Shown here one piece after another: positions 4,603 to 63,120 of a stretch of DNA of 64,000 bases (position 1 is its first letter; each line of letters begins with the position of its first letter). The stretch spans positions 124,001 to 188,000 of the forward strand of contig NZ_RCTZ02000007.1 in the NCBI RefSeq assembly GCF_003667315.2, in the 5' to 3' direction. Below the pieces are notes generated by a model. It was not told the DNA's origin and did no database searches. It saw only the letters and a list, made by a program, of their open reading frames with translations. The translations under genes and the position numbers were made by a program. The DNA comes from Tropicibacter alexandrii (lineage in GTDB: Bacteria > Pseudomonadota > Alphaproteobacteria > Rhodobacterales > Rhodobacteraceae).

Positions 4603-4628
4603 GTAGGATGGGTGATCACCCATCCTAC
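4603..4628. terminator. Convergent-gene palindrome, copy 1 (probable bidirectional terminator)
   Basis: A perfect 26-base palindrome made of GTAGGATGGGTGA followed by its reverse complement. It fills the gap between ispE (+) and the polyprenyl synthase gene (-). Four other copies occur in this window, all between convergent genes. Confidence 0.75.
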
Positions 4629-13832: not shown

Positions 13833-15509
13833 ATGGCAAACGCAACTATGGAAGAATTCGAAGCGCTTCTTAACGAAAGCCTCGAAATGGACACCCCCGA
13901 CGAGGGTACCGTCGTCAAAGGCAAGGTCATCGCCGTCGAAGCGGGCCAAGCCATCATCGACGTGGGCTACAAGATGGAAGGCCGCGTTGATCTGAAAGAA
14001 TTCGCGAATCCCGGCGAAGCGCCCGACATCAATGTCGGCGACGAGGTCGAAGTCTACCTTCGCGCCGCCGAGAACGCCCGTGGCGAAGCCGTCATTTCCC
14101 GTGAAATGGCCCGCCGCGAAGAAGCCTGGGACCGCCTCGAAAAAGCCTATGCAGACGATGCCCGCGTCGAAGGCGCGATCTTTGGCCGCGTCAAGGGTGG
14201 CTTCACCGTCGATCTCGGCGGTGCCGTGGCCTTCCTGCCCGGCTCCCAAGTTGACGTGCGCCCCGTGCGCGATGCTGGCCCGTTGATGGGTCTCAAGCAG
14301 CCGTTCCAGATCCTGAAGATGGACCGTCGCCGTGGCAACATCGTCGTGTCGCGCCGCGCGATCCTCGAAGAGTCCCGCGCCGAACAGCGCGCCGAGGTCA
14401 TCGGCAAGCTGCAAGAAGGCGACGCGGTTGACGGCGTGGTCAAGAACATCACCGAGTACGGCGCATTCGTCGATCTGGGTGGCGTCGACGGCCTGCTGCA
14501 CGTCACCGACATGGCATGGCGCCGTGTGAACCACCCGTCGGAAATCCTGTCGATCGGCGAGACCGTCAAGGTCCAAGTCATCAAGATCAACAAGGAAACC
14601 CACCGTATCAGCCTCGGCATGAAGCAGCTGCAGGAAGATCCGTGGGATCTGGTTGGCGTCAAGTATCCGCTGGGCTCGGTCCACAAGGGTCGCGTCACCA
14701 ACATCACCGATTACGGTGCGTTTGTTGAGCTGGAAGCCGGTGTCGAAGGTCTGGTCCACGTCTCCGAGATGTCCTGGACCAAGAAGAACGTGCACCCCGG
14801 CAAGATCGTGTCGACCTCGCAGGAAGTCGACGTCATGGTTCTGGAAATCGACCCGACCAAGCGTCGCGTGTCGCTGGGCCTGAAGCAGACGCAGCGCAAC
14901 CCGTGGGAAGTCTTCTCCGAGACCCACCCCGAGGGCACGCAGGTCGAAGGCGAAGTCAAGAACATCACCGAATTCGGTCTGTTCATCGGCCTCGAAGGCG
15001 ACATCGACGGCATGGTTCACCTGTCCGACCTGTCCTGGGACGAGCGCGGCGAGGAAGCCATCCAGAACTACCGCAAGGGCGATGTGGTTCAGGCGGTTGT
15101 CTCCGAAGTCGACATCGAGAAAGAGCGTATCTCGCTCTCGATCAAGGCTCTGGGCGGCGACAAGTTCGCGGATGCGGTTGGCGGCGTGAAGCGCGGCTCG
15201 ATCGTGACCGTCGAAGTGACAGCCATCGAAGATGGCGGCATCGAAGTGGAATATGAAGGCATGAAGTCCTTCATCCGCCGCTCCGACCTGTCGCGTGACC
15301 GTGCCGAACAGCGCCCCGAGCGTTTCTCGGTCGGTGACAAGGTCGACGTCCGTGTCACCAACATCGACTCCAAAACCCGCCGTCTGGGCCTGTCGATCAA
15401 GGCACGCGAGATCGCCGAAGAGAAAGAGGCCGTGGAACAGTACGGTTCGTCGGACTCGGGCGCATCGCTGGGCGATATCCTTGGCGCAGCGCTGAAGGGC
15501 GACAACTGA
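13833..15509 (+). CDS. rpsA: 30S ribosomal protein S1
   Basis: This 558-residue protein consists of six S1 RNA-binding repeats and recruits mRNA to the 30S subunit. The repeats are plain in the sequence, for example VVKNITEYGAFVDLGGVDGLLHVTDM and the following VTNITDYGAFVELEAGVEGLVHVSEM. The ATG has AAGGA upstream. cmk, the common neighbour of rpsA, is absent here. The leader of about 180 bases contains a terminator-like hairpin. After the stop come a 20-base palindrome and a strong terminator. Confidence 0.98.
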   Translation: MANATMEEFEALLNESLEMDTPDEGTVVKGKVIAVEAGQAIIDVGYKMEGRVDLKEFANPGEAPDINVGDEVEVYLRAAENARGEAVISREMARREEAWDRLEKAYADDARVEGAIFGRVKGGFTVDLGGAVAFLPGSQVDVRPVRDAGPLMGLKQPFQILKMDRRRGNIVVSRRAILEESRAEQRAEVIGKLQEGDAVDGVVKNITEYGAFVDLGGVDGLLHVTDMAWRRVNHPSEILSIGETVKVQVIKINKETHRISLGMKQLQEDPWDLVGVKYPLGSVHKGRVTNITDYGAFVELEAGVEGLVHVSEMSWTKKNVHPGKIVSTSQEVDVMVLEIDPTKRRVSLGLKQTQRNPWEVFSETHPEGTQVEGEVKNITEFGLFIGLEGDIDGMVHLSDLSWDERGEEAIQNYRKGDVVQAVVSEVDIEKERISLSIKALGGDKFADAVGGVKRGSIVTVEVTAIEDGGIEVEYEGMKSFIRRSDLSRDRAEQRPERFSVGDKVDVRVTNIDSKTRRLGLSIKAREIAEEKEAVEQYGSSDSGASLGDILGAALKGDN

Positions 15510-29127: not shown

Positions 29128-29149
29128 CAAGGCTCTTCGAAGAGCCTTG
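29128..29149. repeat. TTCGAA-core palindrome 4 (CAAG-GCTC-TTCGAA-GAGC-CTTG)
   Basis: Perfect 22-base palindrome 11 bases after the acyl-CoA synthetase stop. An identical copy lies at 29262-29283. Confidence 0.75.
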
Positions 29150-29239
29150 CGTGGCGCTGCCCTTACCGGTGCGCTGCCGTCCGAAAGGAAAGATTTGTCC
29201 CGCAAGAGCCGGGCGCGGCGATTGTCGGCTGGGCGGGCT

Positions 29240-29261
29240 CAAATTCCTTCAAAGGAATTTG
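29240..29261. repeat. TTCGAA-family palindrome 5 (CAAATTCC-TTCAAA-GGAATTTG)
   Basis: Same layout and length as the others, with AT-rich arms and a core changed to TTCAAA. Apart from the two central bases it is a perfect palindrome. Confidence 0.6.
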
Positions 29262-29283
29262 CAAGGCTCTTCGAAGAGCCTTG
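29262..29283. repeat. TTCGAA-core palindrome 6, identical to palindrome 4
   Basis: Directly abuts palindrome 5, in the gap between the convergent acyl-CoA synthetase and amidase genes. Confidence 0.75.
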
Positions 29284-31109: not shown

Positions 31110-32342
31110 TCAACTCTGCTTGACGGGCGCTCCGCCGCCGAACACGTTGCCGTTCGCATAATCGCAGGGCGCATCCTGCATCTGCAGGTGCAATCCCTCG
31201 CCGGTGAAGGGGTGGGCGCGGGCCAGATCCTCGTCTACGTCTATCCCAAGGCCGGGCGCCTGTGGGGCAGGGATGAAACCGTCTTCGATGCGGATGGTTC
31301 CCTTGATCAGCGCGTCATGGAAGGGCGTCTCGATGGTCTCGGCGATCAGCAGGTTGGGGATCGCGCAGGCCAGTTGGATATTGGCGGCCCATTCGATGGG
31401 ACCTGCGTAGAGGTGCGGCGCCATCTCGGCGTTGAAGCTTTCGGCCAGCGCGGCCAGTTTGCGCGCCTCCCAGATGCCGCCCGCGCGCCCCAGCGCCGGT
31501 TGCAGGATCTTCGCCCCGCCGGTGCGCAACAGGGTGGCGAATTCAGCGCGGGTGGTCAGGCGCTCGCCGGTGGCGACCGGGATGCGGACGGCGTTTGCCA
31601 CCTGCTGGAACTCCAGCAGGTTGTCCGGGGGAATGGGTTCCTCGAACCAGAGCGGGTTGTAGGGCTCGATGGCCTGTCCCAGCCGGATCGCGCCGGCGGT
31701 GGTGAACTGGCCATGGGTGCCGAAGAGCAGGTCGGCCTTGTCGCCCACGGCGGCGCGGATCGCCCGGCAGAAGGACACCGACAGCGAGATGTCGGACATG
31801 GCGGGCTGGTGCCCGCCGCGCATGGTGTATGGGCCTGCCGGGTCGAACTTGACCCCGGTATAGCCGCGCCCGATGCAGTCCAGCGCCGACTCGGCGGCCA
31901 TTTCCGGGCTGACCCAGAAGTCGGGCAGCGGGTGATGCGGCAGCGGGTAGAGATAGGTATAGGCGCGCACGCGCTCGTTCATCAGCCCGCCGATCAGCGC
32001 CCAGACGGGGCGGTCGCGGGCTTTGCCGAGGATGTCCCAGCAGGCGATTTCGAGGCCCGAGAACGCGCCCATGACCGTCAGGTCGGGGCGTTGGGTGAAG
32101 CCCGACGAATAGGTGCGGCGGAACATGCGTTCGATGTTCTCGGGGTTCTCGCCCTCGAAATAGCGCTGGAAGACGTCCGAAATCACCGCGCGCATGGCGT
32201 CGGGACCGATGGAGGAGGCGTAGCATTCGCCCCAGCCGGTGATGCCGCAGGCCGTCGTCAGTTTCACGAGGATCCAGTATTGCCCGCCCCAGCCGGGGGC
32301 CGGGGGGCTGGTGACGATGATGTCGAGATCAGCGAGTTTCAT
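31110..32342 (-). CDS. Mandelate racemase/enolase-superfamily enzyme (probable acid-sugar dehydratase)
   Basis: This 410-residue protein has the N-terminal capping domain and a C-terminal barrel with metal-binding acids (FGTHGQFTTAGAI, WFEEPIPPDN and TGERLTTRAEF) and a basic residue region HLYAGPIEWAANIQLA. GYTGVKFDPAGPY resembles acid-sugar dehydratases of the mandelate racemase subgroup. These enzymes abstract the proton alpha to a carboxylate. The next gene downstream on the same strand is not close; the zinc alcohol dehydrogenase lies 116 bases upstream. The substrate is unknown. Confidence 0.85.
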   Translation of the reverse strand: MKLADLDIIVTSPPAPGWGGQYWILVKLTTACGITGWGECYASSIGPDAMRAVISDVFQRYFEGENPENIERMFRRTYSSGFTQRPDLTVMGAFSGLEIACWDILGKARDRPVWALIGGLMNERVRAYTYLYPLPHHPLPDFWVSPEMAAESALDCIGRGYTGVKFDPAGPYTMRGGHQPAMSDISLSVSFCRAIRAAVGDKADLLFGTHGQFTTAGAIRLGQAIEPYNPLWFEEPIPPDNLLEFQQVANAVRIPVATGERLTTRAEFATLLRTGGAKILQPALGRAGGIWEARKLAALAESFNAEMAPHLYAGPIEWAANIQLACAIPNLLIAETIETPFHDALIKGTIRIEDGFIPAPQAPGLGIDVDEDLARAHPFTGEGLHLQMQDAPCDYANGNVFGGGAPVKQS

Positions 32343-32390
32343 CGGTGTCGTCCTTTCACATGTTTCGCCCGCGCTGCGCTTGGGCGACCG

Positions 32391-32449
32391 GTTGGGGGAG
32401 GCTCTGCCTCCCCCAACCCCCCTCCGCGGTATCTTCAGCCAGAAGAAGG
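32391..32449 (+). repeat. Composite hairpin plus TATTTT/AGAAG intergenic element, copy C
   Basis: Twelve-base arms GTTGGGGGAGGC / GCCTCCCCCAAC around TCT, then CCCCCTCCGCGGTATCTT and CCAGAAGAAG. It matches copies A and B except for a missing second hairpin. Confidence 0.6.
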
Positions 32450-32458
32450 GCTGGCGGG

Positions 32459-37834: not shown

Positions 37835-39091
37835 ATGACTCCGAAACTGTTGACGACCCTCAGGACGTATGATCGCGCGACCTTTCTGGCCGACGTGATT
37901 GCCGGGATCAGCGTGGCGCTTGTGGCGCTGCCCCTGAGCCTTGCCATCGCGATTGCCAGCGGCGCGCTGCCCGAGACGGGGCTTTACACGGCGATGGTCG
38001 GCGGGTTCCTGATCTCGGCGCTGGGCGGCAGCCGGGTGCAGATCGGCGGGCCGACGGGGGCGTTCATCGTCGTGGTGTTCGGCGTGATCGAGGCGCATGG
38101 CATGGACGGTCTGGTGCTGGCCACGATGATGGCGGGGGGGATCCTGCTGGTGGCCGGATTGCTGCGCGCAGGCAGCCTGATCGCCTATGTGCCAGAGCCG
38201 GTGGTGCATGGCTTTACCATCGGGATCGCAGGGATCATCGCGGTCAGCCAACTGCCGGACTTGCTGGGGCTGTCGGGAGAGCTGCCCGCAGGCGTCTTTG
38301 CGCGGCTGAAGGCCGTTTGGGCCGCGCGGGACATGGTCAACGGCGCGGCGCTCGGCGTGGGGCTGGCGGTCATGGCCCTGATCATCGCGTTGCGCCGGGC
38401 CTTTCCACGATTTCCGGGCTTGATCGTCGCCGTGGGACTCGGGTCGCTTGTCGTGGCACTGGCCGGACTGGAGGTCGATACGGTGGCGGGGCGATTTGGC
38501 GCGTTGCCGCGCAGCTTGCCGGTGCCGGCATTGCCGGAGGTGACGACCGCGCGGCTGGTCGAGCTTCTGCCCTCGGCGCTGGTGATCGCCTTTCTGGCGG
38601 GGATCGAGTCGCTGTTGTCAGCGGTGGTGGCCGATCGGATGATCGGCGGGCGGCATCGCCCCAATGCCGAAGTGCTGGCGCAGGGCGTGGCGAATCTCGG
38701 CTCGGCTCTGTTCGGCGGCCTGCCCGCAACGGGGGCGATTGCTAGGACGGCGACGAATGTGCGGGCGGGTGGCAAGACGCCGGTGGCAGGCATCGTGCAT
38801 GCGCTGACGGTGGGGCTGTGCATGGCGCTGGCGGCCCCGTTGGTGGGGGCGATGGCAATGCCGGCTCTGGCGGGATTGCTGCTGCTGACCGCGTGGAACA
38901 TGAGCGAGCCGGGCAAGTGGCGCGGCTATCTCGGCTTGCGCCGGTCGGACCTGTTCCTGCTGGTGCTGACGATGGTCCTGACCTTGGCGGCGGACCTGAC
39001 GGTGGCCATCGGGGTCGGCGTGGCGTTGGGGCTTGCGCTGCGGCTGAGACGCCGGGCGGAGCCCGTGGACTGGGCGCCGAGGGAAAAGTAG
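37835..39091 (+). CDS. SulP-family anion transporter without a STAS domain
   Basis: This 418-residue membrane protein starts with the SulP signature region (TFLADVIAGISVALVALPLSLAIAIASG) and has PEPVVHGFTIGIAG and the later AFLAGIESLLSAVVADRM and GLPATGAIARTATNVRAGGKTP. Most SulP transporters are about 550 residues with a cytosolic STAS domain; here the frame ends directly after the last membrane segment. The stop TAG is part of the convergent-gene palindrome. It probably moves sulfate, bicarbonate or another anion. There is no clear ribosome-binding site. Confidence 0.88.
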   Translation: MTPKLLTTLRTYDRATFLADVIAGISVALVALPLSLAIAIASGALPETGLYTAMVGGFLISALGGSRVQIGGPTGAFIVVVFGVIEAHGMDGLVLATMMAGGILLVAGLLRAGSLIAYVPEPVVHGFTIGIAGIIAVSQLPDLLGLSGELPAGVFARLKAVWAARDMVNGAALGVGLAVMALIIALRRAFPRFPGLIVAVGLGSLVVALAGLEVDTVAGRFGALPRSLPVPALPEVTTARLVELLPSALVIAFLAGIESLLSAVVADRMIGGRHRPNAEVLAQGVANLGSALFGGLPATGAIARTATNVRAGGKTPVAGIVHALTVGLCMALAAPLVGAMAMPALAGLLLLTAWNMSEPGKWRGYLGLRRSDLFLLVLTMVLTLAADLTVAIGVGVALGLALRLRRRAEPVDWAPREK

Positions 39092-39113
39092 GATGGGTTC
39101 AGACCCATCCTAC
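39088..39113. terminator. Convergent-gene palindrome, copy 2, supplying the SulP stop
   Basis: Eleven-base arms GTAGGATGGGT and its complement around TCAG. The arms equal those of the four other copies; only the centre differs. It separates the SulP (+) and FKBP (-) genes. Confidence 0.75.
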
Positions 39114-45226: not shown

Positions 45227-45248
45227 CAAGGCGCTTCGAAGCGCCTTG
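45227..45248. repeat. TTCGAA-core palindrome 7, identical to palindrome 1
   Basis: Perfect 22-base palindrome upstream of the MATE gene. Confidence 0.75.
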
Positions 45249-55855: not shown

Positions 55856-55881
55856 GTAGGATGGGTGATCACCCATCCTAC
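55856..55881. terminator. Convergent-gene palindrome, copy 3
   Basis: Perfect 26-base palindrome identical to copy 1, between the DMT transporter (+) and kptA (-). Confidence 0.75.
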
Positions 55882-58827: not shown

Positions 58828-58853
58828 GTAGGATGGGTGATCACCCATCCTAC
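58828..58853. terminator. Convergent-gene palindrome, copy 4
   Basis: Perfect 26-base palindrome identical to copy 1, between nadK (+) and the CRP-type gene (-). Confidence 0.75.
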
Positions 58854-63094: not shown

Positions 63095-63120
63095 GTAGGA
63101 TGGGTGATCACCCATCCTAC
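63095..63120. terminator. Convergent-gene palindrome, copy 5
   Basis: Perfect 26-base palindrome identical to copy 1, between the exported-protein gene (+) and the malic enzyme gene (-). Confidence 0.75.

Follow-up and report, generated by a model that had tools for sequence, protein, structure and literature searches.

The window, a stretch of 64,000 nucleotides from Tropicibacter alexandrii, contains five copies of a palindrome of 26 bp. The form GTAGGATGGGTGATCACCCATCCTAC is present four times, and the fifth copy is the variant GTAGGATGGGTTCAGACCCATCCTAC with arms of 11 bp and a loop of 4 nt (Table 1). An earlier sequence-only reading had placed four identical palindromes and one variant at these positions, with convergent genes and close stop codons around each of them, and was correct in all of this. 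Their occurrence is beyond chance: matches to the arms with up to two mismatches number 10 in the window, compared to 0.85 +/- 0.98 expected, and none of 100 shuffles reached 10. The flanking genes, which were called with our own script using a hexamer model trained on the same genome, are ordinary. The only Rfam match in the window is a tRNA, and no palindrome is matched.

Table 1. Palindrome copies in the window and the stop codons of the convergent genes on both sides (distance from stop to palindrome in brackets).
Feature	Position	Strand	T-side	Gene to the left	Gene to the right
26-bp palindrome, TGATCA centre	4603-4628	+	right (TTTC)	GHMP kinase gene, + (6 bp)	polyprenyl synthetase gene, - (2 bp)
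variant palindrome, 11-bp arms, TTCAGA centre	39088-39113	-	minus strand (TTTTCCC)	sulfate-permease-family gene 37835-39091 (-4 bp; the TAG of GTAG is its stop codon)	FKBP gene (8 bp)
26-bp palindrome, TGATCA centre	55856-55881	+	right	EamA transporter gene, + (1 bp)	KptA/Tpt1 gene, - (48 bp)
26-bp palindrome, TGATCA centre	58828-58853	-	left	NAD kinase gene, + (7 bp)	Crp-like regulator gene, - (1 bp)
26-bp palindrome, TGATCA centre	63095-63120	-	left	gene without Pfam match, + (9 bp)	phosphate acetyl/butyryl transferase gene, - (6 bp)

Other repeats were noticed as well. A second, unrelated family forms arrays of about 100 bp with two to four different perfect palindromes of 20-22 bp (CAAG..TTCGAA..CTTG, ACGCGTCTTCGAAGACGCGT), which are often 24-25 bp apart. 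About 60 of them occur in 1.29 Mb in all types of gaps (window 29128-29283 and 45227-45248; L127:13655-13750, L140:11927-12041, L142, L146, L152, L153, L173, L179), and the copies in the window have no Rfam match. Related palindromes, whose arms are different and still self-complementary, are found in G001, a genome of the same genus. A further recurrent hairpin, GGGGGAGGCnCTGCCTCCCCC, is followed by AACCCCC or GAACCCCC and lies between co-directional genes (window 32342-32458; L131:3999-4277 and 14483-14688).

Copy number, arms and centres

The T. alexandrii assembly (5.04 Mb in 86 contigs, 99.96% complete) contains the palindrome in about 114 places (pattern GTAGGRTGGG-N-CCCAYCCTAC), and 108 places are within three mismatches of the 26-mer. 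We read 110 copies individually in 1.31 Mb of fetched stretches; about four further copies lie outside these. The arms GTAGGATGGGT are almost invariant and the centres variable: 90 of the 110 copies are the identical 26-mer, and the 20 with other centres (TTTGAA, TCTGAA, TGCGCA and others) have unchanged outer arms of 10 bp. Scored over 22 arm positions, 107 places are exact, three have one change, two have two and none has three or four, after which only background at the level of shuffles follows. No tail of decayed copies was found by this scoring, and compensatory arm changes do not occur within the genome. As decayed copies are almost completely lacking while centres vary, the arms seem to be under stronger constraint than would be necessary for a neutral mobile element.

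In Neisseria and Haemophilus, inverted pairs of uptake sequences are located behind stop codons, a situation which the palindromes recall. The idea that they are DNA uptake sequences (DUS/USS-like), the inverted pairs of which double as terminators, is nevertheless refuted, because single copies are practically missing, and retains almost no probability: unpaired GTAGGATGGG was found only six times in 1.31 Mb versus 110 palindromes, and five of the six are decayed palindromes.

The element has a polarity. About 80 of the 90 identical copies are preceded by G and followed by TT(T), so that on one strand the outer bases pair as G-T wobbles. The strand carrying the T side is the G-rich strand in 65 of 105 cases (p 0.02), which is a weak bias and confounded with gene direction. 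The element is surrounded by TGA codons at two offsets, which together with the TAG of GTAG provide stops in all three frames. Extended by its flanks the palindrome measures about 30-45 bp, and homology between the flanks of different copies ends about 10 bp beyond the element. Five doublets with spacers of 14-21 bp (L126, L130, L131, L148, L152) were observed among about 105 places.

Position relative to genes and hairpin properties

Outside the window the palindrome is not restricted to convergent genes. Among the 110 classified copies, 44 are located between convergent, 59 between co-directional and four between divergent genes, one lies at the end of one of the stretches read and two were called inside ORFs; one of the latter is clearly in an ORF, the other is probably due to a mis-called start. 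The convergent setting, which the sequence-only reading took to be the only one, therefore holds within the window but is not a general rule, and more than half of the copies are co-directional. The enrichment between convergent pairs for which it had suggested a genome count is real, though. There are 44 copies in 124 convergent gaps of at least 30 bp, 59 in 468 co-directional and four in 185 divergent ones, rates which are relative and not genome-wide because the gaps for comparison were taken from the surroundings of copies. Copies are more frequent in convergent than in co-directional gaps (Fisher p 4e-8, odds ratio 3.8), and more frequent in the latter than in divergent gaps (Fisher p 1e-5).

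The copies sit directly behind stop codons, typically at -4 to +13 bp with clusters at -4, 1, 6 and 8, and the TAG of GTAG is often the stop itself. In co-directional gaps the upstream stop is the nearer one in 46 of 59 copies (p 2e-5), with a median of 7 bp to the stop versus 48 bp to the next start.

Such a position, as well as the convergent enrichment, would also result if the palindromes were a family of bidirectional intrinsic terminators, selected for termination at 3' ends and homogenised by recombination, whose likeness to REP elements is coincidental. We give this reading a modest chance. GC-rich hairpins shortly behind stop codons are predicted on both strands, with a stem of 11 bp, a loop of 4 nt and about -19 to -24 kcal/mol in the native context (with the flanks included, the consensus reaches up to -33), and the G-T wobble of the T side lengthens the stem on one strand. 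Many of the convergent gaps with a copy are only about 40 bp long and have nothing else in them. However, the U-tracts are weak: the T-run has a mean of 2.2 on the T side and the other side is mostly C, then C or T, whereas many other hairpins of this genome have classical A/T tracts with at least four T. The T side follows transcription at only 32 of the 59 co-directional sites, so no significant orientation rule is seen, and termination alone needs no fixed arm sequence. Classical terminators are not depleted near copies according to a weak detector (11/85 vs 35/325 convergent ends).

In addition, some copies interrupt operons. One (L165:15709-15734) lies between atpB and atpE, which encode the F0 subunits a and c, one (L144:8739) between def for peptide deformylase and fmt for formyltransferase, and one (L175:7110) behind argJ, 15 bp before the ATG of the next gene. 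A strong terminator inside any of these units would be costly. The T side of the atpB/atpE copy faces upstream, and its hairpin in the mRNA is thus without a U-tract; if stable, it could shift the relative expression of subunit c.

Distribution in relatives and comparison with a congener

The 10-bp arms with species-specific centres are found in 30 of 397 sampled genomes of the family, with 1-21 copies each apart from T. alexandrii, and in none of about 380 genomes sampled elsewhere in the Alphaproteobacteria. The exact 26-mer is absent from the 84,980 GTDB species searched (the own genome was possibly left out), and the consensus of 45 nt has no match in 72,556 plasmids. Among the matches listed in a scan of all genomes, the named carriers are mostly Rhodobacteraceae and Roseobacteraceae, and at least a few gamma- and betaproteobacterial and planctomycete contigs have single copies. 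The best plasmid matches to the SHMT of this genome likewise belong to roseobacters (Ponticoccus, Ruegeria), in agreement with a host from this group. Relatives show the same placement: of 98 loci, 31 are convergent, 56 co-directional and four divergent, and the most common distance is again -4, with TAG as stop. We found no published description of the palindrome in Rhodobacteraceae in the open literature.

Which centre dominates depends on the lineage (CAATATTG, TGATATCA, CGATATCG, GTTGAAC). In dominant forms the palindrome is perfect right across its middle, TGATCA here and CAATATTG, TGATATCA or CGATATCG in relatives, which is a symmetry that RNA hairpins do not need. Together with near-invariant arms without compensatory changes it would fit a site in duplex DNA, bound by a putative dimeric protein with a role in the nucleoid, topology or regulation and tolerated only at the 3' ends of genes. 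The symmetry is suggestive only. Asymmetrical centres make up most of the distinct forms in relatives, yet less than half of the copies. We regard such a binding site as quite improbable, as a species of the same genus has no copy at all and most sampled genomes of the family lack the palindrome; the placement behind stops fits an RNA role or insertion tolerance equally well.

The species without a copy is represented by G001, which offers a natural before/after comparison at each junction. In the 1.13 Mb of G001 compared, 17 junctions have orthologous flanks on both sides, about 15 of which are informative, and the element is absent from all of them. At five junctions (L164:7255, L137:12746, L137:4313, L134:11619, L148:4914) G001 has a classical hairpin terminator in the same gap, which speaks for a terminator function; the one at the L148 junction shares the GGATGGG stem, but A/T tracts take the place of GTAG/CTAC. 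At L133:5735 and L152:8040, on the other hand, the classical terminator is retained intact beside the new copy, and this speaks against a terminator family. The gaps of G001 are 34-44 bp shorter at two junctions (L114:9655, L127:7688). Neither a target-site signature nor an exact insertion boundary is visible in this comparison, in which borders are blurred because the congener is only 75-85% identical.

The sequence-only reading had interpreted the palindromes as a dedicated bidirectional terminator family. The convergent enrichment, the hairpins on both strands and the five congener terminators are in line with termination, but the family is not a dedicated set, as copies interrupt operons and U-tracts are weak. 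Judged from these sequence features, a 3'-end hairpin with some use as terminator would fit better.

The clear in-ORF copy (L172:5874-5899) is located in frame within xdhA, which encodes the small subunit of xanthine dehydrogenase. Here 26 nt are replaced and the length is the same as in G001, where the stretch already comes close to the right arm in sequence (CCCCGTCCTACCGCGA vs CCCATCCTACCGCGA); the rest corresponds to the master sequence including the TGATCA centre. Five other xdhA homologs have a variable segment at this site and a conserved P-[SGD]-[YF], which is overlapped by the right arm. The unchanged length and the near-match in the congener would fit a spread of the palindrome without transposase, in which a master copy replaces a short pre-existing sequence by template-directed conversion that starts where an arm is partly matched. 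As a general way of spreading this seems unlikely to us. If true, a novel family-specific system of copying and recognition would be marked by the nearly invariant arms and by the symmetric centres, which differ between species.

The palindrome among known systems

The palindrome is probably a REP-like mobile hairpin, non-coding and non-autonomous, which is used opportunistically at 3' ends. It would present 5'-GTAG and a hairpin on both strands and is probably derived from or convergent with REP elements of the GTAG type. Its multiplication to about 114 copies may have taken place after the split from the sequenced congener. Copies would then persist where the hairpin is harmless or useful, namely directly behind stop codons, and once transcribed it could end or protect the 3' end of the mRNA. 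Between tightly spaced convergent genes it would often be the sole candidate terminator and might replace a classical one. Inside operons it would have to be read through and would serve as 3'-stabiliser or attenuator, functions which REPs are held to have.

A REP is characterised by a single unpaired tag. Most hosts of REPs possess a RAYT transposase, which is the usual explanation for the spread of these repeats. No match to PF01797 (Y1_Tnp) exists in the T. alexandrii genome, and only one of the 30 palindrome genomes has a Y1 match, with about 2.9 expected by chance (38 of 397 overall). A RAYT/IS200 origin inside this genome is therefore not supported, although a RAYT may have been lost or unsampled. 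We also looked for a REPtron-like gene between two copies and found none; the genes between close copies look housekeeping as judged by eye. A clean, apparently recent, high-copy REP-like family without RAYT is a good system for studying how such repeats multiply, and it equally suits the question whether hosts use them to replace terminators.

According to the sequence-only reading, such repeats are seen in other bacteria only as scattered terminators and have no known mechanism of spread. The former overlooks the GTAG REPs, which are found chiefly between ORFs transcribed in one direction or convergently, in most cases no more than 20 bp from a 3' end, and whose TAG often serves as the stop codon (Di Nocera 2013, PMC3733652). 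As to the latter, RAYT has been proposed as the transposase of REPs (Nunvar 2010, PMC2817692); being absent here, it would not account for the spread in this genome.

The closest known counterparts are Haemophilus REPs of the GTAG superfamily (GTAGGGTGGG), namely GTAGGGTGGGTCTTGACCCACC of H. parasuis and GTAGGGTGGGCTTcAGCCCACC of H. influenzae (PMC2817692), with which the palindrome shares the GTAG start and the GGRTGGG stem. It further resembles GTAG REPs in its 20-40 bp, tens to hundreds of mostly intergenic copies, some doublets and rare in-ORF copies, in its location between co-directional and convergent ORFs close to stops and in the use of TAG as stop. Stem and loop lie within the ranges given for REPs (5-13 bp and 2-20 nt). 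In contrast, doublets are few here, the host is alphaproteobacterial, and the GTAG is not a single unpaired tag: it pairs with the 3' CTAC and stands at the start of both strands. For the TnpA-REP of E. coli the GTAG motif is important, and perfect palindromes are the substrates of group 3 TnpA-REPs (PMC8266576), so that a perfect stem alone is no bar to REP identity.

REPINs consist of two REPs in inverted orientation and are mobilised by RAYT (PMC3116915, PMC8049555). They likewise start with GTAG, end with CTAC and can form a single hairpin, but the palindrome has only 26 bp, without a spacer between two separate REPs, and no RAYT. The alphaproteobacterial repeats of the 2013 survey, which are mainly of the CGTC type (PMC3733652), are also REP-like and have no dedicated transposase known, but differ in tag and sequence. 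Rho-independent bidirectional terminators are similar in position and in the hairpin on both strands, and at some junctions the palindrome is found at the place of a classical terminator in the congener; they differ from it in U-tract, in arm sequence, which is fixed here, and in the copies inside operons. The palindrome would work like a REP, yet it is a variant outside REP membership, because both of its ends have a paired GTAG and the genome lacks a Y1 transposase, a gene which does not track the repeat in the family either.
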